A DNA stretch of 32,016 nt from Chloroflexota bacterium (GCA_020850535.1 JADZEM010000159.1:1-32016), one strand, 5' to 3'. Numbered from the stretch's first letter, positions 14,709-29,235 are shown. Program-made: numbers and translations. The notes: a model not told the origin generated them from the letters alone.

Positions 14709-17684
14709 CTACCGGCGGCGGGAGGCCAGCCAGGGCAGCGCCAGCCCGATCATCGCCGCGAACAGCAGCACTGCCACGCTGATCGCCGCGCCGACGCGCA
14801 GCGAGAGCGGATCGAACTCCAGCTCGACCGTGTGCGGCCCCGGCGGCAGCGCCACGGCCCGGAACAGGAAATTGGCCAGGTAGACGGGCGCCGGCTGGCC
14901 GTCCACGCGGGCGCGCCAGCCGCGGTGGTACAGGTCGGTCAGCACCAGGAAGCCGCCGGGGCCGTCCGGCGTCGCGATCCGCAAGCGATCTGAGTTGACG
15001 TCGGTGACCGACGCCGCGACCGGCATCGCCGATGGATCGAGCGGTTGGCCGAAGCGCGGGCGGACCAGCGGCAGACCCTCGGTCGGCCCCTCTTCGAGCA
15101 CCACCTGTCGGCTGCCGTCGAACGGCCGCGATCCCATCCGCACCAGCGCGGCGTCCTCGGCCCGCGTCCTGAAAACGCCCTCTGGCACGACGTAGGCCCG
15201 TGGAAAGGCCCGGGTGTTCTCGAGTACGGCGATGCCGTCCTGCTGCCAGAGCTGGCGAAACTTCGAGCGGTCTGTGCTGAACACCGAGCGAACCTTGCCG
15301 GCCGGGTCTACCAGTCCCAGCCCGAAAATCCGCGTGTGCCCGACCGGGTAGATCTGCCGCAGCTCGACGCCGACGACGTCCATCGCCTCGACGTCGAACC
15401 GGGCGAAATAGACGTTTGTGCGCGTCGGCAGGCCAGACGGGTCGGTGTCTGGAATCCGGCCTGCTACGGCCGGGCGCGCGTGGCGCAGGTGGGTCTGCAC
15501 ATCCGGACGGTCGTAGGCGTTCTCGGCGGTGTGGACGCCGGCCAGCAGTTGCACCGAGCGCCGCATGCCGTCCGCGCCCACCAGCGTGACCTCGGCCATC
15601 GGGGTGTCCTGGTCGATCTGCACGCCGTCCACCAGCGTCGAGAGCACCCGCAGCTCGACCGTGCGCGTCGGCTCGACGGTGAACTGGGCGAACCCCGTGC
15701 GGTTCGACGCCGTCCCGCGGAAGAGGGCGTTGTAGGGCCGGTACGCCGTCCCCTGGACGATCTCCACGTCGCGTGGCGGGCTGGCCATGACCAGTTGCCC
15801 GACCGACCAGAGGTCCAGCAGGGCATCCTCCTGGCTGTCCACCGACGACCAGTACTCGAAATGCCGCTGCGTGCCGAGCGAGGCGTACCCCGCCACGGTC
15901 GGCACCCGATTCCTGAGCAGGGTGTTCGGCTCCAGGAACCGCAGCGACGAATCGGCGAAGACGCGGGCGTCAGGGCCGAGCGTGGCAAGGTACGCAGCCA
16001 CCGGCGACGGCTCGACCAGCGAGGCGTACGGCACGCGCGGGTGATAGCCGTGGCCGAAGAGGAGCAAGTCGCCCGCCACCATCACGATGGCCAGACCGGC
16101 CGCGACGGGCCTGATCCGTGGCAGCAGCGCCCAGGCCAGCAGCAGGACGCTCCCGCCGACCAGCAGCCCCACGGTCAGCTGTGCCTGCGGATTGGACAGG
16201 CTGAGACCGTTCACGAGCGCGTCGTAGACCATCTCGCCGCTGAGCCAGCCGTGCTCGTGGAGCACGGACAGGTAGCTCTCGTCGATCAGCATCTTCCAGC
16301 GGACCGGATCGGCCACCAGCCGGCGGTGGAGTCCGGCGATCAGGTAGACGACGACGCCGGCGCCCGCCGCGAACAGGGCTGCGCCCGAGACTGCCAGCCA
16401 GGACCGCCGGCGCTGCCGCATCAAGGCGTCCAGGCCGAACGCCGCCAGCCCGGCCATCGCGAAGACGATCAGGTAGGCGTACCGCCCGGGCGCTCGCAGC
16501 GACGAGAAGCCCGGCAACGACCAGAGCAGCCGATGGATGTTGAGCGGGCTCTGCTCGGCCAGCCCGACGAGCAGCCCGAAGACCGCCAGCAGCAGGAAGA
16601 ACGGCACGATGCGTCGTCGGCTGGCCAGCACCCCGACCATCGCCAGCCCGAGCGGCAGGATCCCGACGTAGAGGTAGCTCTCCCACTGCTGCCAGAGCGT
16701 GACCCAGCGGCCATCCGGCAGCCTGAACAGATACGGCAGGATGATCGTCGCGAGGTTCTGCCAGCGCAGGGGCCAGGTGATGGCGAGGTCGTACCCGAGG
16801 CCGGGGCCACGGTACGACATCCGCCCCAGCTCGTAGAGCGGCAACCACTGCGCGGCGGCGATCCCCAGCCCGATGCCGGCCACCAGCGCTGGCGCCCAGG
16901 CCAGCAGCAGCCCGCGCTCCCAGGGCCGGCCGGCCACCGGCCCGACCACCACCCGGTAGGCGACGAACAGCCCGAGCGTCACCAGGGTCATAAAGACCGG
17001 CTGAATGTGGACGCCGAGCGCGGCCATTGCCATCGCGAGGCCACCGGCCGCCAGCCACTGTTGTCGCCGCCAGCCGGTTGCGCGCAGGCCAAGCTCCGTG
17101 AACGCCAGCACCAGCGGCAGCCAGACGGCGCTGCGAACGACGTTCTCGTGCTGGATCTGGGCCACCAGGAAGCTGCCAAAGCCGAAGACCAGCCCGCCCG
17201 TTATCGAGGCCGTCCGCCCGACGCCGAGCACGCGCAGCAGCACCAGCATGAACGACGCGCCCAGGAACAGGTGCAGCGCCCGCGACACGGCCATGAAGCG
17301 GTCCGGCCCGGCCAGCAGCCCGACGACGAGGTTCAGCGGGTAGAGCATCCCCATCTCACCATCGGCGAACAGGGGGTAGCCGCTGAAGATCAGCGGGATC
17401 CAGAGCGGCAGATGCCCGGCCCGCAGCTCGCCGAGGAACCAGCGGGTCAACGGCAGGTAGAACAGCTCGGTGTCGCGCTCCGCGATGACGAGGTTCCGGA
17501 ACAGATCCTCCCAAAAGAGGATCAGCGAGCAGGCGGCAAACGCCAGCAGCGGCAGCAGCTCACGTACGGTCTCGCGGCGATCCCAGCGCGTGGCGGCTTG
17601 CGGGGCGACGGCCGGAGGCTCCTGCGCCGCCCCCGACCGCTCCGGTCCCTTGCGGGTCTCCACACGGGTGACGGCTGCTGTCAT
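14709..17684 (-). CDS. YfhO-family membrane glycosyltransferase (GT-C type)
   Basis: 991 residues from ATG 17684, seven bases after the stop of the methyltransferase gene; the longer frame overlaps that gene. The N-terminal half has about 12-13 hydrophobic helices, starting with LLPLLAFAACSLILFW. An acidic motif in the first outer loop (ERDTELFYLPLTRW) and the YPLFADGEMGMLYPLN motif are typical of YfhO and other GT-C enzymes. The second half is a soluble extracytoplasmic domain ending in VLTDLYHRGWRARVDGQ and LPPGPHTVELEFDP, followed by one C-terminal helix. In Bacillus subtilis YfhO acts with the GT2 protein CsbB to add sugars to lipoteichoic acid outside the membrane. Here it is the last gene of an operon that also holds a GT2, so a similar outer-surface transfer is inferred. 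The acceptor is unknown. Confidence 0.85.
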   Translation of the reverse strand: MTAAVTRVETRKGPERSGAAQEPPAVAPQAATRWDRRETVRELLPLLAFAACSLILFWEDLFRNLVIAERDTELFYLPLTRWFLGELRAGHLPLWIPLIFSGYPLFADGEMGMLYPLNLVVGLLAGPDRFMAVSRALHLFLGASFMLVLLRVLGVGRTASITGGLVFGFGSFLVAQIQHENVVRSAVWLPLVLAFTELGLRATGWRRQQWLAAGGLAMAMAALGVHIQPVFMTLVTLGLFVAYRVVVGPVAGRPWERGLLLAWAPALVAGIGLGIAAAQWLPLYELGRMSYRGPGLGYDLAITWPLRWQNLATIILPYLFRLPDGRWVTLWQQWESYLYVGILPLGLAMVGVLASRRRIVPFFLLLAVFGLLVGLAEQSPLNIHRLLWSLPGFSSLRAPGRYAYLIVFAMAGLAAFGLDALMRQRRRSWLAVSGAALFAAGAGVVVYLIAGLHRRLVADPVRWKMLIDESYLSVLHEHGWLSGEMVYDALVNGLSLSNPQAQLTVGLLVGGSVLLLAWALLPRIRPVAAGLAIVMVAGDLLLFGHGYHPRVPYASLVEPSPVAAYLATLGPDARVFADSSLRFLEPNTLLRNRVPTVAGYASLGTQRHFEYWSSVDSQEDALLDLWSVGQLVMASPPRDVEIVQGTAYRPYNALFRGTASNRTGFAQFTVEPTRTVELRVLSTLVDGVQIDQDTPMAEVTLVGADGMRRSVQLLAGVHTAENAYDRPDVQTHLRHARPAVAGRIPDTDPSGLPTRTNVYFARFDVEAMDVVGVELRQIYPVGHTRIFGLGLVDPAGKVRSVFSTDRSKFRQLWQQDGIAVLENTRAFPRAYVVPEGVFRTRAEDAALVRMGSRPFDGSRQVVLEEGPTEGLPLVRPRFGQPLDPSAMPVAASVTDVNSDRLRIATPDGPGGFLVLTDLYHRGWRARVDGQPAPVYLANFLFRAVALPPGPHTVELEFDPLSLRVGAAISVAVLLFAAMIGLALPWLASRRR

Positions 17685-17691
17685 CGGAAGC

Positions 17692-18498
17692 TCAGGTCGC
17701 AGCCGTCCCAGCCACGAGCGGCGCGGCCACGGCCGGGGACGGCAACGGATCGACCCGCCGGGCAACGGCGAACACGGACAGCCCCCACGGCAGCCCGACC
17801 GTCATGGCGGCCAGCGACTCCAGGCTCAGCAGGTCGGCCAGGACGCGGTTGAACGGGCCGGGCGGACGCCAGAGGTCCGTCGCCTCGTGGGTGTCGCTGC
17901 GAAGCTCCAGGTAGCGCTTGATCGGCGCAAGCGGGAACAGCAGAAAGTTGGCGTAGGTGGACCGCTCGACCAGGAAGCCGACCGACTCCAGCTTGCGAGT
18001 CAGCTCCTCGCGCGTGTACCGATGGCGGGTGTGGACGACCTCGTCGTGCGCCCCGCGAATCCAGTCGAAGGCGGGCAGGCGGATCAGGGCGACCCCGCCC
18101 GGGCGCAGCACGCGGTGGATCTCCGAGAGCGCGCCCCGGTCGTCGTCCACGTTCAGGTGGTACAGCACGTCGAAGCTCGTCACGATGTCGAAGGAGCCAT
18201 CGCGGAACGGGATCGAGCCGACCGACGAGCGCGCCAGCCGGGTCAGGCCGCGCGTCCGCGCCAGCCCGACCGCCTCCGGCGCCAGGTCGATCCCCGTCAC
18301 CCGCCCGAACCGTTGCAGGTAGCGCGTCATGCCGCCCGAGCCACAGCCGGCGTCCAGCACGTCCAGAGGACGACCGTTGACTCGATCCACCCTCGGACGG
18401 TGCCGCTCCAGCAGCGCCGTCGAGATCCGTCGCATGCCCACATACCACCAGTGTCGCTCCTCCTGAGCGAACATCAGGTCGTACTGTTCGCGCTCCAT
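17692..18498 (-). CDS. Class I SAM-dependent methyltransferase
   Basis: 268 residues. SAM-binding motif I is VLDAGCGSG (47-55), followed by the acidic end of strand 2 (VTGIDLAPEAV), SFDIVTSFDVLYHL and the LRPGGVALIRLP strand of the UbiE/Methyltransf_11 fold. The N-terminus (EERHWWYVGMRRI) is often found in methyltransferases of sugar and lipid gene clusters. The substrate is not identifiable. Position between the aminotransferase (12-base gap) and the YfhO gene (7-base gap) suggests methylation of an amino sugar or of the lipid-linked glycan. The C-terminal region has a moderately hydrophobic stretch (LESLAAMTVGLPWGLSVFAV) but no certain membrane span. Confidence 0.88.
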   Translation of the reverse strand: MEREQYDLMFAQEERHWWYVGMRRISTALLERHRPRVDRVNGRPLDVLDAGCGSGGMTRYLQRFGRVTGIDLAPEAVGLARTRGLTRLARSSVGSIPFRDGSFDIVTSFDVLYHLNVDDDRGALSEIHRVLRPGGVALIRLPAFDWIRGAHDEVVHTRHRYTREELTRKLESVGFLVERSTYANFLLFPLAPIKRYLELRSDTHEATDLWRPPGPFNRVLADLLSLESLAAMTVGLPWGLSVFAVARRVDPLPSPAVAAPLVAGTAAT

Positions 18499-20652: not shown

Positions 20653-21399
20653 TCAGCCCTCCCGACGCGCCTGCCGAGCCGGCGTGCGCTGGCGGAGTCC
20701 GCGCCACAGCACCAGCTGGAGCCACAGACGGATCAAGTCCACACCCACCCGCCCAACCCGCCGGAAATTGAAGAACTGCGACTGGCCGTAGGCGCGATGG
20801 TAGTGGTGCACGGGCACCTCGGTCATCTTGAAGCCGGCCTGGACGATCTTCGTCATCATCTCGACGCAGATGACGCCGCTGTCCTGCGTGAGCTGCACCT
20901 CGTCGAAGACTTTGCGGCGGATCAACCGCAAGTCGCAGTCCACGTCGCGGATCGGCAGCCCGAACATGGCCCGCACGACGGTGTGGTACATCCGGCCGAT
21001 GACGACACGATGGAGCGGGTCGCCGCGCCGGATCTTGTAGCCCTGCACCATGTCGACGTCGTCGGTCAGGTTGTCGTACAGCAGGCGGAACTCGCGCGGA
21101 TCGTACTGCGCATCGCCGTCGGTGTAGCAGACCAGATCCTTCGAGGCGTGCTCGAAGCCGCTGCGGAGCGCGCCGCCGTAGCCTCGGTTTTTGGCGTGCG
21201 TGACGACCCTCAGCTTCGGGTAGCGCGTCTGAAGATCGGCCAGCACCTCCGCCGTGTGGTCGGGGCTGCCGTCGTTGACGACGATCACCTCGTAGTCGTC
21301 GGTGATGGCGCGCAGCGTCCTGTCCGCCGTGACCACCATGCTGGCGATCGTGCCGGCGTCGTTGTAGGCGGGGAAGAACGCGCTGATCGAGTGGGGCAC
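20653..21399 (-). CDS. Family 2 glycosyltransferase, DPM1-like
   Basis: 248 residues from a GTG at 21399 with GGGGAGAGG upstream. GT-A signatures are SAFFPAYNDAGTI (6-18), VVNDGSPDHT (40-49) with D43, the metal-binding D94/D96 in YTDGDAQYDP, and a late QSQFFNFRRV segment. It resembles polyprenyl-phosphate sugar transferases of the dolichol-phosphate-mannose synthase kind, but the C-terminal membrane helices found in CsbB-like forms are absent; only an amphipathic stretch (LIRLWLQLVLW) remains. It would charge undecaprenyl phosphate with a sugar at the inner membrane face, to feed the YfhO protein at the end of the operon. It is the first gene of the five-gene unit. Confidence 0.9.
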   Translation of the reverse strand: MPHSISAFFPAYNDAGTIASMVVTADRTLRAITDDYEVIVVNDGSPDHTAEVLADLQTRYPKLRVVTHAKNRGYGGALRSGFEHASKDLVCYTDGDAQYDPREFRLLYDNLTDDVDMVQGYKIRRGDPLHRVVIGRMYHTVVRAMFGLPIRDVDCDLRLIRRKVFDEVQLTQDSGVICVEMMTKIVQAGFKMTEVPVHHYHRAYGQSQFFNFRRVGRVGVDLIRLWLQLVLWRGLRQRTPARQARREG

Positions 21400-23390: not shown

Positions 23391-23537
23391 CTCCGCGCGC
23401 GGGTCGCCTCCTGGCTCCCCGCTGGTTCCCCTCACCACCCGTCCCCTCCGAGTCATACGACCGCGCCACGGTGCGGGTCAAGGACCGCGTCGCCCAGGTG
23501 GGCGGTCTGTGGATTGCCGGGCCAGCCCACGGCCGGC

Positions 23538-23546
23538 TGGTATACT
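23538..23546 (+). promoter_or_regulatory. Extended -10 promoter of pepA
   Basis: TGG-TATACT is an extended -10 element about 55 bases upstream of the pepA ATG. A weak TTGCCG at 23514 is 21 bases away, too far for a standard -35, which fits an extended -10 promoter. GAGGAG (23585-23590) precedes the ATG by about 11 bases. Confidence 0.5.
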
Positions 23547-23601
23547 CGCCGGTCACGCAGGACATCGCGTCTTGATCGAGTCGTCGAGGAGCCGCGCAAC
23601 C

Positions 23602-25131
23602 ATGGATGTATCCGTCAAGGTCGAACGCGCATCGCTGACAGCCGTTCGGACGCCGCTGCTGGTCGTCAACCTCTTTGAGGGCGTCGAGGAGCCGTCGGGC
23701 GCGACGGGCGCTGTGAACGAGGCGCTCGGCGGCCTGATCGGCCGGCTGATCGCCGACGGCGAGATCAAGGGCTCGCTTGGCGAGGTGACCGTCATCCACA
23801 ACCAGGGTGACCGCGCCGCGCTGGCCGCCGACCGCGTGGCCGTGGTCGGCCTCGGCAAGCGCGACGACCTCGATCTTGAGGCGCTGCGGGTCGCCTCGGC
23901 CACGGCGGCGCGGAAGGCTCGCGATCTTCGTCTCGGACGGTACGCTACCGTCGTGCACGGCGCGGGAGCCGGCGGCCTCGACTCGCGGCTGGCCGCGCGC
24001 ACGGTGGTCGAGGCCAGCCTGATGGCGCTGTACACCTACTTCCACTTCAAGACGCCGCCAGACGATCCGCGCCCGACCATCGACGAGATCACCATCATCG
24101 AGCGCGACGACGACCGCGCCGAGCTATTTGCCGCTGCCGCCGACGACGCGGCGAAGCTGGTGGACGGTGTGAACCTCGCCCGGGACCTGTCGCAGGCGCC
24201 CGGCAACGTCATGACCCCGACCGTCCTGGCCGACCGCGCCCGCCAGATGGCTGAGTCGCGCGGCCTCTCGATCCAGGTTTGGGGCAAGGACGAGCTCCGC
24301 GAGAAGGGCATGAACGCCATTCTGGCCGTCAACTCGGGCAGCGCCCAGGAGCCCCGCTTCGTGATGATGCGGTACGACTGCGGCGACGAGCGCGCGAAGA
24401 CGCTGGCCATCGTCGGCAAGGGCATCACGTTCGACAGCGGTGGCATCTCCCTCAAGCCGCCGGAGAACATGGAGAACATGAAGCACGACATGAGCGGCGC
24501 TGCCGCCGTGGTCGGCTTCTGCCAGGCCGCCGCCGATCTCAAGCTGCCGGTCAACATCATCGGCATCTTCGCGGCCACCGAGAACCTGCCCAGCGGGACG
24601 GCCTACAAGCCGGGCGACGTGTTCAAGACGTACCAGGGCACGTTCATCGAGATCGTCAACACCGATGCCGAGGGCCGGGTCATCCTGTCGGACGCGCTGG
24701 CCTACGCCGCCGAGCAGAGCCCCGACGCCATCATCGACCTCGCCACGCTGACCGGGGCCTGTGTCGTGGCGCTCGGCTACCACGCCAGCGGCGCGATGGG
24801 GAACGACCAGGGGCTGCTCGGGCTGGTGCAGCAGGCCGGCGACGCGGCCGGCGAACGCGTCTGGCCGCTGCCGCTCTGGAAGGAGCACCACCGCGACATC
24901 GACAGCCCGGTTGCCGACATCAAGAACACCGGCGGGCGGGCCGGCGGCGCGCTGACGGCCGCGGCGTTCCTGCAGTGCTTCGTGGACGGCAAGCCGTGGG
25001 TCCACCTGGACATCGCCGGGACGGCCTACACCGAGAACTGGTCGCGAACGCCTCCCTATCACCCGTCGAGCTGCGCCACCGGCATGGGCGTTCGGCTGCT
25101 GGTCGAGCTGGCCCGCCGCTGGGGCGCTTGA
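23602..25131 (+). CDS. pepA: Leucyl aminopeptidase (M17)
   Basis: 509 residues from ATG 23602 (MDVSVKVERASLT). It is a two-metal cytosolic aminopeptidase that removes N-terminal residues from peptides, normally a hexamer. All catalytic and metal residues are visible and sit exactly three positions later than in E. coli PepA: K273, D278 (GKGITFDSGG), catalytic K285, D296 (MKHDMSGAA), D355 and E357 in the family signature NTDAEGR (353-359), with R359. The N-terminal ~170 residues form the macro-like regulatory domain. The open frame extends upstream to 23509, but the extension crosses the promoter. The gene is separate from its neighbours: the J-domain gene is divergent and the YfhO-flippase gene begins 48 bases downstream. 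Confidence 0.95.
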   Translation: MDVSVKVERASLTAVRTPLLVVNLFEGVEEPSGATGAVNEALGGLIGRLIADGEIKGSLGEVTVIHNQGDRAALAADRVAVVGLGKRDDLDLEALRVASATAARKARDLRLGRYATVVHGAGAGGLDSRLAARTVVEASLMALYTYFHFKTPPDDPRPTIDEITIIERDDDRAELFAAAADDAAKLVDGVNLARDLSQAPGNVMTPTVLADRARQMAESRGLSIQVWGKDELREKGMNAILAVNSGSAQEPRFVMMRYDCGDERAKTLAIVGKGITFDSGGISLKPPENMENMKHDMSGAAAVVGFCQAAADLKLPVNIIGIFAATENLPSGTAYKPGDVFKTYQGTFIEIVNTDAEGRVILSDALAYAAEQSPDAIIDLATLTGACVVALGYHASGAMGNDQGLLGLVQQAGDAAGERVWPLPLWKEHHRDIDSPVADIKNTGGRAGGALTAAAFLQCFVDGKPWVHLDIAGTAYTENWSRTPPYHPSSCATGMGVRLLVELARRWGA

Positions 25132-25162: not shown

Positions 25163-25183
25163 ATGACGAGCAGCCCGGCGTGA
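25163..25183 (+). other. Possible six-codon leader frame overlapping the next start
   Basis: ATG at 25163 opens a frame coding MTSSPA and stops at TGA 25181-25183, overlapping the GTG (25180-25182) of the large gene as GTGA. The GTG has no Shine-Dalgarno of its own, so re-initiation after this mini-frame is conceivable. The mini-frame itself has only a weak ribosome site. Confidence 0.25.
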
Positions 25184-28100
25184 CGGCGACCTCCCAGCGT
25201 CCCCCGACCTCGGCGGCCCCAGGCCCGGCCGCCGAGGCTCGGGGGACGCGGCGCGTCTGGCGCGTGCTTAGGGCAGACCTCGCCGTCTGCGCGCTGTTCG
25301 CCGTGCTGGCGCTGGCGTTCGTGGGACCGTCGCTGCTGCCGGGCCGGGCGCTGCTGCCCATCGACGCACTGTTCGGCTACCCGCCCTGGCAGGCCCATGC
25401 CGACAACTTTGGTGTCTCGCTGCCGCACAACCCGCTGATCGCCGACGCCATCCTGCAGAACTACTCCTGGAAGCGGCTGGCCCGCGAGAGCTTCGCCCAG
25501 GGCGAGCTGCCGCTCTGGAACCCGTACATCCTGAGCGGGCAGCCGTTCATGGCGTCCGGCCAGAACGGCTCGCTGTACCCGCTGGGCGTCCTGTTCTACG
25601 TGCTGCCGCTGGCCTCGGCCTACGGCTGGTTCATCGGGCTGCACCTGTGGATCGGGGCCATCGGGGCGTACTGGCTCGCCCGAACGCTCGGGGCGACGCG
25701 GCTCGGCGGGACAGTATCAGGGCTGACGTTCGGCTTCTGCGGCTATCTGGTCGTCAGCTTCCTCTGGCCGATGGTCGTCAGCACCGCCGTCTGGCTCCCG
25801 ATGTTGCTGGCCGTCATCGAGCGGCAGATGCAGCGCGGCCCCCGAGCGGCGCTCTCGTCGGTCGTGGCCGGCGGCACGATTGTCGGGCTGCAGTTCCTGG
25901 CCGGCCACCTTGAGATGAGCCTGTACCTGCTGCTGACAGCCGGCCTGTACACCGCGCCGCGGATCGGGCTGCGACTTCGCGCCGACGGCCTCCCCCGCCC
26001 GATCCTCGACGGCCTCGTCGCGCTGACGATGGTGCTGCTCGGGACCGGCCTGGCCGCGATTCAACTGGTGCCGTTCGCGGAGGTGATCGGCGCGAACGTC
26101 CGCGGCGGCTGGTCTGACTACCAGGAGACGATTGGCTACGCGCTGCCGAAAGAGCGGCTGCTGGCCTACCTGCTGCCAGACCTGTTCGGGAACCCGACCC
26201 ATCACACCTATTACGACGTGGTGGCCGGCGAGACTCGCTCCACCGAGCACACCCGCCCGAACGGCGAGCGCCGCGCCGACACCGAGTGGGGCGGCAAGAA
26301 TTACGTCGAGGGGACGGTGTACCTCGGGGTACTGCCGCTGCTGCTGGCACTCCTCGGGCTGCTGGCCCGGCCGCGCGGCGGCGGCCTCGTCCTGGCGATC
26401 CTGGCCGTTGTCTCGCTGCTGTTCGCCTTCGGCACGCCAGCCTACGCGCTGCTGTTCTACGGCATCCCGGGCGTCAATCAGCTGCACACGCCGTTCCGGT
26501 GGGTCTACCCGCTCACGGTGTGCGCGGCGGCGCTGGCGGGACTTGGCGTCACCGCGATCACGGCGCGGGGGCCCGGCGGCTTGACTGGGCCGGGGGGTGA
26601 GGGCCTTCCCCGACGCCTCGCCGTCGCCGTGTTCACTATCGGAGCCGTTGGTCTCCTCGCGGTCGGCTTCGCTTACGTCAGCCCCGGCTGGGGCGTCGCC
26701 CTGGCCGGGCGCGCGCTCCGACGTTGGCGCGAACTGCAGAACGGTTTCGGCTCGCCGGAGATGCTGTTCTCCTACCAGTGGGCGAACATCGCGCGGGCGG
26801 CGGCGCTGCTCACAGTTTCTGGCTTCGTGATCTGGCTGGCAACCACCCGTCGCGCCAGCATGGCCGGCGGGCTGGCCGTCCTGGTGACGGTCCTCGATCT
26901 GTTCAGCTTCGGGATCGGGTTCAACGCGGCTGCTGATACCCGCCCGCTCTCGTTCGTGCCGCGGAGCATCGCCGCCATCAAGGCCGATCCAGGCCTCTTC
27001 CGCGTCGTGACGTTCGGCGAGGACGACACGCTGCCCTCGAACACCAACATGCTGTTCGGCCTTCAGGACATCCGCGGCTACGACACGATCATCCTGCGCG
27101 AGTACGTGGAGTACCTGGAACGGATCGAGCCGCAGCGCGGGATTCCATACAGCAAGGTCGCCAAGCTGTTCGATCAGCGCTCGCTGTCGTCGCCGCTGCT
27201 CGATCTGCTCAACGTCAAGTACGTCCTGACCAGCAAGGTGCTGAGTTTGCCGGGCTGGACGCTCCACGCCCAGGGCGACGGCATCCGCGTCTACCGCAAC
27301 GAACGAGCGATGCCGCGCGCATTTGTCGTGGGGCGGACCATAGAGGCTCCGAGTCGGCTCGCGGCGCTCGACACGGTCGGGCGGCCCGGCTTCGATCCGC
27401 GCACGACGGCGGTGGTCGAGAATCCGAACGCTGGCGGTCAGTCGGTTGGCACGGGAGCGGCGGCCCCTCCGCTGGTCTCGGCCGAGATCGCGGCCTACGA
27501 GAACAATCGCGTGGTCGTTCGGGCCGACGGCGGCGGCAGCGGCGGCACGCTGGTGCTGGCCGACGTCTACTTCCCCGGCTGGACGGCGTCCGTCGACGGG
27601 CAGAGCGCCACGGTCCTGCGAGCGAATGGCCTGCTGCGCGCCGTCCAGCTTGCGCCCGGCCCACACACCGTGGAGTTCCGCTACCGGCCGCTCTCGGTGC
27701 GGGTCGGCGCGCTGCTGACCGGCATCTCGGGATTGGTGCTGGCCGGGCTGGTCGGCTATCTGGCCTTTGGCGCCCGAACGACGCGCGGCGGCGCGCCCTC
27801 GACGGCCCGGCGGGTGCTCCGCAACTCGGCCTTCCCGATGGCCTCCAGCCTGCTCAACAAGGTGGTCGATCTCGGGTTCGCGCTGATCACGTTCCGCGTG
27901 CTGGGGGCTGAGGGCGTCGGGGCGTACACGTTCGCGGGGGTGCTGACGACCTACTTCGATGTCGTGGTGGGCTGGGGCCTCGGCACCCTGATCACGCGCG
28001 ACGTGGCGCAGGATCGGTCGGCGGCCGGCCGCTACCTGGGGAACGGCACGGTTTTGCGGCTAATCCTCTGGTGCGGCGCGGCGGCGATCACGGCGCTGCT

Positions 28101-29235
28101 GACAGGGCCGCTGGCCCCGGCGCTCGATATCGACGGGACGCTGGCGCTGGCGATCTGGCTGCTGGTGCTCGGGCTGTTGCCGGGGCTCCTGAGCGGGGTC
28201 GTCAGCGCCCTGTTCATGGCCCACGAGCGGATGGACGTGCCGGCCGCCGTCACCATGCTGTCGACCATCTCGAAGGTCGTGCTGGGCCTGGGCGCGCTGC
28301 TGGTGGGATATGGCTACGTCGGGCTGGCAGCCGTGTCGATTGTGACCAACGTGACGACGCTGGTCGTGCTGCTGGTGGTATACGGCTGGCTGATCGGGAC
28401 GCCGCGCCCGACTGTCTCGGCGACCGTGGTCTGGTCGCTGGTCGGCGTCTCGTTTCCGCTGATGATCAATGGCCTGCTCAACCAGCTCTTTTTCAAGATC
28501 GACGTGCTGCTGCTCAAGCCGCTGGCCGGCGACCTTGCATTGGGCTGGTACTCGACGGCCTACAAGCTGATCGACGGGCTCCAGGTGATCCCGGCGAGCT
28601 TCGTGCTGGCCCTGTTCCCGCTGCTCGCAAGGTACGCCGCCGAGGACCGTGCCCGCATGGTCCGCCTGACCGACACGGGCCTCAAGATCCTGCTGGTGCT
28701 GGCGTTCCCCATCGCCGTCGGCACGACGCTCCTGGCCGAACCGATCATCCTGCTGCTGGCCGGCCAGTCCTACCTGCCGGAGTCCGCGCGGGCACTCCAG
28801 ATCCTGATCTGGTATCTCCCGATCAGCTTCGCGAACGGGCTGCTCCAGTATGTGCTGATCTCGGTGAACCGCCAGCGCACCCTGAGCGTCGCCTTCGCGG
28901 CCGGCGTGGTCTTCAACGTGCTGGCGAACGTGCTGCTGATTCCAACCTATGGGTACGTCGCCGCCGCGCTGGTCACGGTGGCATCCGAGGTGGTGCTGCT
29001 CGCGCCGTTCCTCTGGGTGACCTGGCAAACGGCCGGGCCGGTCTCGCCGCTGCGGGTGGGCTGGCGGCCGGCTCTGGCAGCCGCCGTCATGGCGCTGCCA
29101 GTCTGGCTGCTCGGCGTCTGGAGCACCCCGCTGGCGATCCTCGGCGGAGCAGCGACGTACGCCGTCGCGCTGCTGGCGCTGCAGGCCATCACGCCGGAGG
29201 AGCGTCAGCAGTTGCGTGCGCTCCTGCGCCGCTAG
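25180..29235 (+). CDS. YfhO-like glycosyltransferase fused to a Wzx/MATE-type flippase
   Basis: 1351 residues in one uninterrupted frame. Residues 1 to about 865 form a YfhO-like protein: a first helix (VCALFAVLALAFVG), ALLPIDALFGYPPW, ELPLWNPYILSGQPF, a multi-helix membrane part to about 590, an extracytoplasmic domain ending TLVLADVYFPGWTASVDGQ and LAPGPHTVEFRYRPLSVRVG, and a closing helix. From about residue 878 (RRVLRNSAFPMASSLLNKVV) comes a complete polysaccharide flippase of ~474 residues with 12-14 helices (FRVLGAEGVGAYTFA; FFKIDVLLLKPLAGDLALGW; LISVNRQRTLSVAFAAGVVF). Either half matches the normal length of a free-standing family member. The flippase would bring a lipid-linked sugar or glycan across the membrane and the YfhO half would transfer from it outside. 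The start is GTG 25180, which lacks a ribosome site. The YfhO part is a paralogue of the gene at 14709-17684, with near-identical C-terminal motifs. Confidence 0.88.
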   Translation: MTATSQRPPTSAAPGPAAEARGTRRVWRVLRADLAVCALFAVLALAFVGPSLLPGRALLPIDALFGYPPWQAHADNFGVSLPHNPLIADAILQNYSWKRLARESFAQGELPLWNPYILSGQPFMASGQNGSLYPLGVLFYVLPLASAYGWFIGLHLWIGAIGAYWLARTLGATRLGGTVSGLTFGFCGYLVVSFLWPMVVSTAVWLPMLLAVIERQMQRGPRAALSSVVAGGTIVGLQFLAGHLEMSLYLLLTAGLYTAPRIGLRLRADGLPRPILDGLVALTMVLLGTGLAAIQLVPFAEVIGANVRGGWSDYQETIGYALPKERLLAYLLPDLFGNPTHHTYYDVVAGETRSTEHTRPNGERRADTEWGGKNYVEGTVYLGVLPLLLALLGLLARPRGGGLVLAILAVVSLLFAFGTPAYALLFYGIPGVNQLHTPFRWVYPLTVCAAALAGLGVTAITARGPGGLTGPGGEGLPRRLAVAVFTIGAVGLLAVGFAYVSPGWGVALAGRALRRWRELQNGFGSPEMLFSYQWANIARAAALLTVSGFVIWLATTRRASMAGGLAVLVTVLDLFSFGIGFNAAADTRPLSFVPRSIAAIKADPGLFRVVTFGEDDTLPSNTNMLFGLQDIRGYDTIILREYVEYLERIEPQRGIPYSKVAKLFDQRSLSSPLLDLLNVKYVLTSKVLSLPGWTLHAQGDGIRVYRNERAMPRAFVVGRTIEAPSRLAALDTVGRPGFDPRTTAVVENPNAGGQSVGTGAAAPPLVSAEIAAYENNRVVVRADGGGSGGTLVLADVYFPGWTASVDGQSATVLRANGLLRAVQLAPGPHTVEFRYRPLSVRVGALLTGISGLVLAGLVGYLAFGARTTRGGAPSTARRVLRNSAFPMASSLLNKVVDLGFALITFRVLGAEGVGAYTFAGVLTTYFDVVVGWGLGTLITRDVAQDRSAAGRYLGNGTVLRLILWCGAAAITALLTGPLAPALDIDGTLALAIWLLVLGLLPGLLSGVVSALFMAHERMDVPAAVTMLSTISKVVLGLGALLVGYGYVGLAAVSIVTNVTTLVVLLVVYGWLIGTPRPTVSATVVWSLVGVSFPLMINGLLNQLFFKIDVLLLKPLAGDLALGWYSTAYKLIDGLQVIPASFVLALFPLLARYAAEDRARMVRLTDTGLKILLVLAFPIAVGTTLLAEPIILLLAGQSYLPESARALQILIWYLPISFANGLLQYVLISVNRQRTLSVAFAAGVVFNVLANVLLIPTYGYVAAALVTVASEVVLLAPFLWVTWQTAGPVSPLRVGWRPALAAAVMALPVWLLGVWSTPLAILGGAATYAVALLALQAITPEERQQLRALLRR

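Follow-up and report, generated by a model that had tools for sequence, protein, structure and literature searches.

A 32,016-nucleotide stretch of DNA from a Chloroflexota bacterium (GCA_020850535.1, JADZEM010000159.1:1-32016; hereafter the window) contains an open frame in which a YfhO-family (GT-C) glycosyltransferase is followed by a flippase of the MOP superfamily. The locus raises the question of whether the two are truly one protein and, if so, which lipid-linked sugar that protein would flip and transfer.

The fusion gene and its distribution

The frame comprises 1351 codons without an internal stop and both halves are read in the same frame (Table 1); in full it is open for 1367 aa, the GTG start at 25180 being putative. 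The linker between the transferase and flippase halves is about 10 residues long. GC3 lies between 0.84 and 0.95 in each 100-codon block, and the GC content by codon position is even across the join. The host genome consists of 7.65 Mb in 227 contigs. A frameshift or assembly error at the join was ruled out, because the identical join recurs in about 40 genomes, one of them assembled as a single contig, and the same relatives rule out a fusion confined to the source organism. The original observation of a frame open across the join is borne out, with the join in frame in relatives and no stop found there. A real transferase-flippase fusion is thus confirmed.

Table 1. Features of the fusion locus, in coordinates of the window
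Feature	Residues	Position	Strand	Remarks
pepA (M17 leucyl aminopeptidase)		23509..25131	+	directly upstream of the fusion
Fused YfhO (GT-C)-MOP flippase gene	1-1351	25180..29235	+	1351 aa, putative GTG start
GT-C glycosyltransferase half	16-867	25225..27780	+	AlphaFold model; fold matches
First outer loop	53-133	25336..25578	+	candidate catalytic D62 (codon 25363) and D89 (codon 25444)
Beta-rich outer YfhO domain	608-836	27001..27687	+	includes the part matched by Pfam PF09586
Last GT-C helix	838-867	27691..27780	+	apparently kept by several solo flippases
Join/linker	864-876	27769..27807	+	alignment of 40 fused proteins; consensus W-R-R-x-x-R
MOP-superfamily flippase half, MurJ/Wzx type	875-1351	27802..29232	+	Pfam, model, fold

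A search for orthologues with the same join covered 400 sampled Chloroflexota genomes, of which about 40, belonging to 25 families, carry the fusion as one frame of about 1310-1460 aa; these counts are lower bounds, since the phylum search scored the best few candidates per genome. All three genomes of the organism's own family have it (one copy is truncated where its contig stops), as do two genomes from a second family of the order and most of the remaining genomes of the class; one carrier (G212) is assembled as one contig of 3.3 Mb. Thirty-four genomes had the transferase half at E<=1e-100, in every case in a fused frame or one cut at a contig end, and no standalone copy of this transferase subfamily was found in the sampled Chloroflexota genomes at that threshold. 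The plasmid collection returned only distant YfhO matches. Among the open papers searched we found no description of such a fusion, and no match for YfhO together with Chloroflexi. The conservation of the join across many Chloroflexota families suggests a physical coupling of flipping and sugar transfer.

Predicted structure of the two halves

In Pfam, YfhO (PF09586) is matched with 43.8 bits against a cut-off of 28.5, mainly at residues 770-847. This match is confined to the C-terminal portion of the Pfam model, and the N-terminal 750 or so residues are weak in Pfam. However, with 40 relatives as input, AlphaFold modelled residues 1-872 at a mean pLDDT of 92.1 and with a full GT-C layout of membrane helices, a large first outer loop, a C-terminal beta domain and a last helix, so the faint Pfam signal looks like divergence. 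Since the PDB sequence-profile search gave no significant match for either half, only fold comparison is informative. By VIA-align the predicted GT-C half matched AftD (Z 24.4, 588 residues), Stt3 (Z 22.8, 451 residues) and ArnT (Z 18.5, 477 residues), and it also matched AglB (Z 19.8). As modelled, residues ~16-867 are a complete GT-C fold.

Two aspartates of the first outer loop, D62 and D89, are present in 37-38 of the 40 fused proteins. D89 is common to fused and standalone forms, as all but one of the 21 standalone YfhO paralogues have it as well, and D62 belongs with N84, H342, K373 and Q434 to the marks of the fused subfamily. The classical DXD is absent at the positions of D62 and D89, and the catalytic role of these aspartates is putative.

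The flippase half matched three Pfam families above their cut-offs, namely Polysacc_synt (residues 879-1152, 89.5 bits), MatE (1093-1251, 48.1 bits) and MurJ (1136-1306, 39.7 bits). The model of residues 690-1351 (pLDDT 90.4) passes from the outer beta domain through one helix and the short linker into a complete MOP flippase. Across the whole of this half the predicted fold is the same as that of MurJ (6nc6; Z 32.9, 446 of 466 residues, 2.6 A) and WzxE (9g9p; Z 31.0), although these are standalone proteins with 11-18% sequence identity. The flippase half is therefore a complete MurJ-like MOP fold in the model, and the proposal that YfhO is joined to a complete protein of the large Wzx/MATE type agrees with Pfam, the models and the fold matches. 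Residues G914, R940, R960, D1108, N1246, N1250 and E1270 hardly vary among the flippases, whether fused or solo. The join also appears topologically sound, because the last GT-C helix comes after the outer beta domain and so, judging by the expected topology, should finish on the cytoplasmic side, which is where MurJ-type flippases start.

A GT2 partner and the proposed cargo

Of the fused loci, 37 show an upstream neighbour, and in 11 of these it is a co-directional GT2 of about 260 aa that directly precedes the fusion and often overlaps it. In 10 of these 11 pairs, which come from ten families, the gap is between -29 and +14 bp. The best PDB match of this GT2 is the dolichol-phosphate-mannose synthase (DPMS) of P. 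furiosus (E 4e-32), with ArnC (2e-16) and GtrB (1e-7) far behind; its NCBIfam matches, all below the cut-offs, are mostly polyprenyl- or dolichyl-phosphate sugar synthases. Since a genome holds one or two such DPMS-type genes, adjacency at this frequency is very unlikely to have arisen by chance. The GT2 expected from the three-component model thus does stand beside the fusion in many relatives. It is absent from the position directly upstream in 26 of the 37 loci, and the genome of the window has a DPMS-type GT2 that is unlinked to the fusion (contig C146). In a genome without the YfhO half (G012) the order is pepA, GT2 and solo flippase; the GT2 has stayed beside the flippase without the transferase, and therefore the product of the GT2 and the flippase appear tied together. 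The GT2 was upstream of 11 of 37 fused and 1 of 14 solo flippases, a contrast that is not significant at this sample size. No GtrA/GtcA flippase match was found in three genomes with the fusion (G002, G011 and G013; assemblies 76-90% complete).

We consider it probable that the locus belongs to a polyprenyl-phosphate-sugar glycosylation system in which the flippase and the GT-C enzyme form one polypeptide. A separate cytoplasmic DPMS-type GT2 would charge polyprenyl phosphate with a sugar, probably a hexose such as mannose. The MOP flippase at the C terminus would turn the polyprenyl-P-sugar to the outer face, and the GT-C enzyme at the N terminus would move the sugar from the lipid to an outer acceptor, which may be a surface polysaccharide, a glycolipid or a protein. 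The single chain would hold donor delivery beside the GT-C active site, and the originally suggested channelling of the flipped lipid between the halves is plausible. We infer these activities, the sugar and the acceptor. More tentatively, the MOP flippase may be dedicated to a polyprenyl-monophosphate-linked monosaccharide and may hand this lipid to its consumer, the fused GT-C enzyme, inside a single protein. If this is true, a MOP protein would be identified as a bacterial flippase of the polyprenyl-P-mannose type.

The size of the cargo is where the first alternative arises. MurJ moves lipid II and WzxE lipid III, and known flippases of the PF01943 type usually move diphosphate-linked oligosaccharides. 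Within the MOP superfamily the fused flippase falls on the Wzx/MurJ side, and the predicted GT-C half is about equally similar to oligosaccharyltransferases (Stt3, AglB) and to monosaccharide enzymes, so a larger diphosphate-linked oligosaccharide could be flipped and then transferred en bloc or polymerised by the GT-C half, in the manner of Wzx with an oligosaccharyltransferase or polymerase. We regard this as rather unlikely, since it is a DPMS-type GT2 that recurs next to the fusion, and no phosphoglycosyltransferase was prominent as a recurrent gene there in neighbour clustering. Dolichol-phosphate-mannose synthase makes monosaccharide donors, and with a partner of this type a polyprenyl-P-monosaccharide is the more likely cargo of the large flippase. 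The earlier suggestion that the large flippase implies larger glycans was accordingly not borne out; such glycans are possible but less favoured owing to the GT2 partner.

Evolutionary history of the fusion

In a tree with 21 standalone YfhO paralogues, the 40 fused proteins formed a single clade by their transferase halves (SH-aLRT 95), a test limited by the paralogues having been drawn solely from the window's own order. The flippase half is also found alone. On the flippase tree the fused state requires 6 changes against a shuffled mean of 25, solo and fused flippases are interleaved within the organism's own order, and constraining the fused flippases to one clade was rejected (AU test, p 2.3e-8). 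Since the N-terminal halves are a single clade while the fused flippase halves are not, the simplest account is one ancient fusion followed by repeated loss of the transferase half. Trees alone do not separate gain from loss, and this direction of change is inferred.

Several further observations concern the solo forms. Several solo flippases (L081, L082, L090 and L156 among them) start, as judged by eye, with an in-frame helix and linker like the end of YfhO. A frame of 884 aa (L155, 8930-11584, plus strand) has a YfhO region with its middle deleted and the MOP flippase still attached, and looks like an intermediate of transferase loss. Furthermore, pepA lies upstream of the fusion in the window, and in seven relatives from the order it lies upstream of a solo flippase; it therefore marks the same locus in both forms. 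Two other histories were considered. Several independent fusions are disfavoured by the single clade of N-terminal halves, and the rejection of a fused flippase clade fits one fusion with later losses. For a fission in which the transferase persisted as a standalone protein, no such copy was found at E<=1e-100, and the best YfhO matches of relatives in the order group among the standalone paralogues in the tree.

Since several lineages have apparently lost the GT-C half and kept the flippase, the flippase can presumably work without it. Its survival in GT-C-less lineages means that it has independent work, and the fusion could then be a lasting physical link with no coupling of function, the two halves acting on different lipid-linked substrates. 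This seems improbable, as the GT-C subfamily occurs only in fused form at E<=1e-100 and the fusion with its short linker persists over 25 families. That one half is a degenerate scaffold, either an inactive flippase positioning the GT-C enzyme or an inactive GT-C enzyme anchoring the flippase, is very unlikely, for although the part-deleted YfhO on the flippase of L155 represents a degenerate state in one lineage, the first-outer-loop aspartates are kept in the window protein and in 37-38 of its 40 relatives, and the charged flippase residues R940, R960, D1108 and E1270 scarcely vary, be the flippase fused or solo.

Comparison with known systems

The proposed polyprenyl-phosphate-sugar system resembles the CsbB/GtcA/YfhO systems of teichoic acid glycosylation in Bacillus, Listeria and Staphylococcus, which likewise comprise a cytoplasmic GT2, a flippase and a YfhO-family GT-C enzyme. 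In those systems the YfhO-family enzyme uses a C55-P-sugar (PMC7389260, PMC5836110). However, they consist of three separate proteins with a small GtcA/GtrA flippase, whereas here a large MOP flippase shares its chain with the GT-C enzyme, and the partner GT2 is closest to DPMS, unlike theirs. The fusion is thus CsbB/GtcA/YfhO-like in its proposed working but lies outside that system in the strict sense, having a MOP flippase and carrying flippase and GT-C enzyme in one frame.

A second parallel is archaeal, in which the Wzx-like MOP proteins are represented by AglR of Haloferax volcanii. There, AglD is a Dol-P-mannose synthase, AglR is the proposed DolP-mannose flippase or a helper of it, and AglS is the DolP-mannose mannosyltransferase (PMC3871713). 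These three are separate proteins, and the likeness to the fusion is one of roles.

The flipping of polyprenyl-monophosphate sugars is largely unproven, and for GtcA biochemical evidence of flipping has been said to be lacking (PMC5836110). The fused protein links a flippase to a donor lipid and offers one purifiable unit for a flip-and-transfer assay, with the solo flippases and the remnants as natural comparison variants.

Other glycosyltransferase genes

The genome of the window (G000) also encodes, on contig C97, a 965-aa protein in which GtrA (residues 26-143) is joined to PMT_2 and YkcB_C (L220, 1016-3913, minus strand), directly preceded by a GT2 gene (L218, 1948-2769, minus strand). 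This protein, too, unites a flippase with a GT-C enzyme and is encoded next to a GT2, but its flippase family is unrelated, its GT-C family is a different one and the domain order is reversed, making it an independent second fusion. Two unrelated flippase-GT-C fusions in one genome fit with a selective advantage in coupling both steps.

The same genome has about ten YfhO-family matches, an expansion of outer-face glycosyltransferases. One is a standalone YfhO paralogue of 1018 aa in the window (14709-17765, minus strand), adjoining genes for a methyltransferase, a sugar aminotransferase, an epimerase/dehydratase and a GT2 (20653-21399) in a small glycan cluster on the opposite strand. Elsewhere, a YfhO-like protein of 1189 aa (L221, 4271-7840, minus strand) has apparent internal fibronectin-III-like repeats, as seen by eye, and another YfhO-like gene comes after it. 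At four loci of family f8 (L127, L129, L143 and L128), NADH-quinone oxidoreductase/Mrp-antiporter-like subunits (Proton_antipo_M) and a DUF2142-like membrane protein are encoded directly upstream of the fusion.
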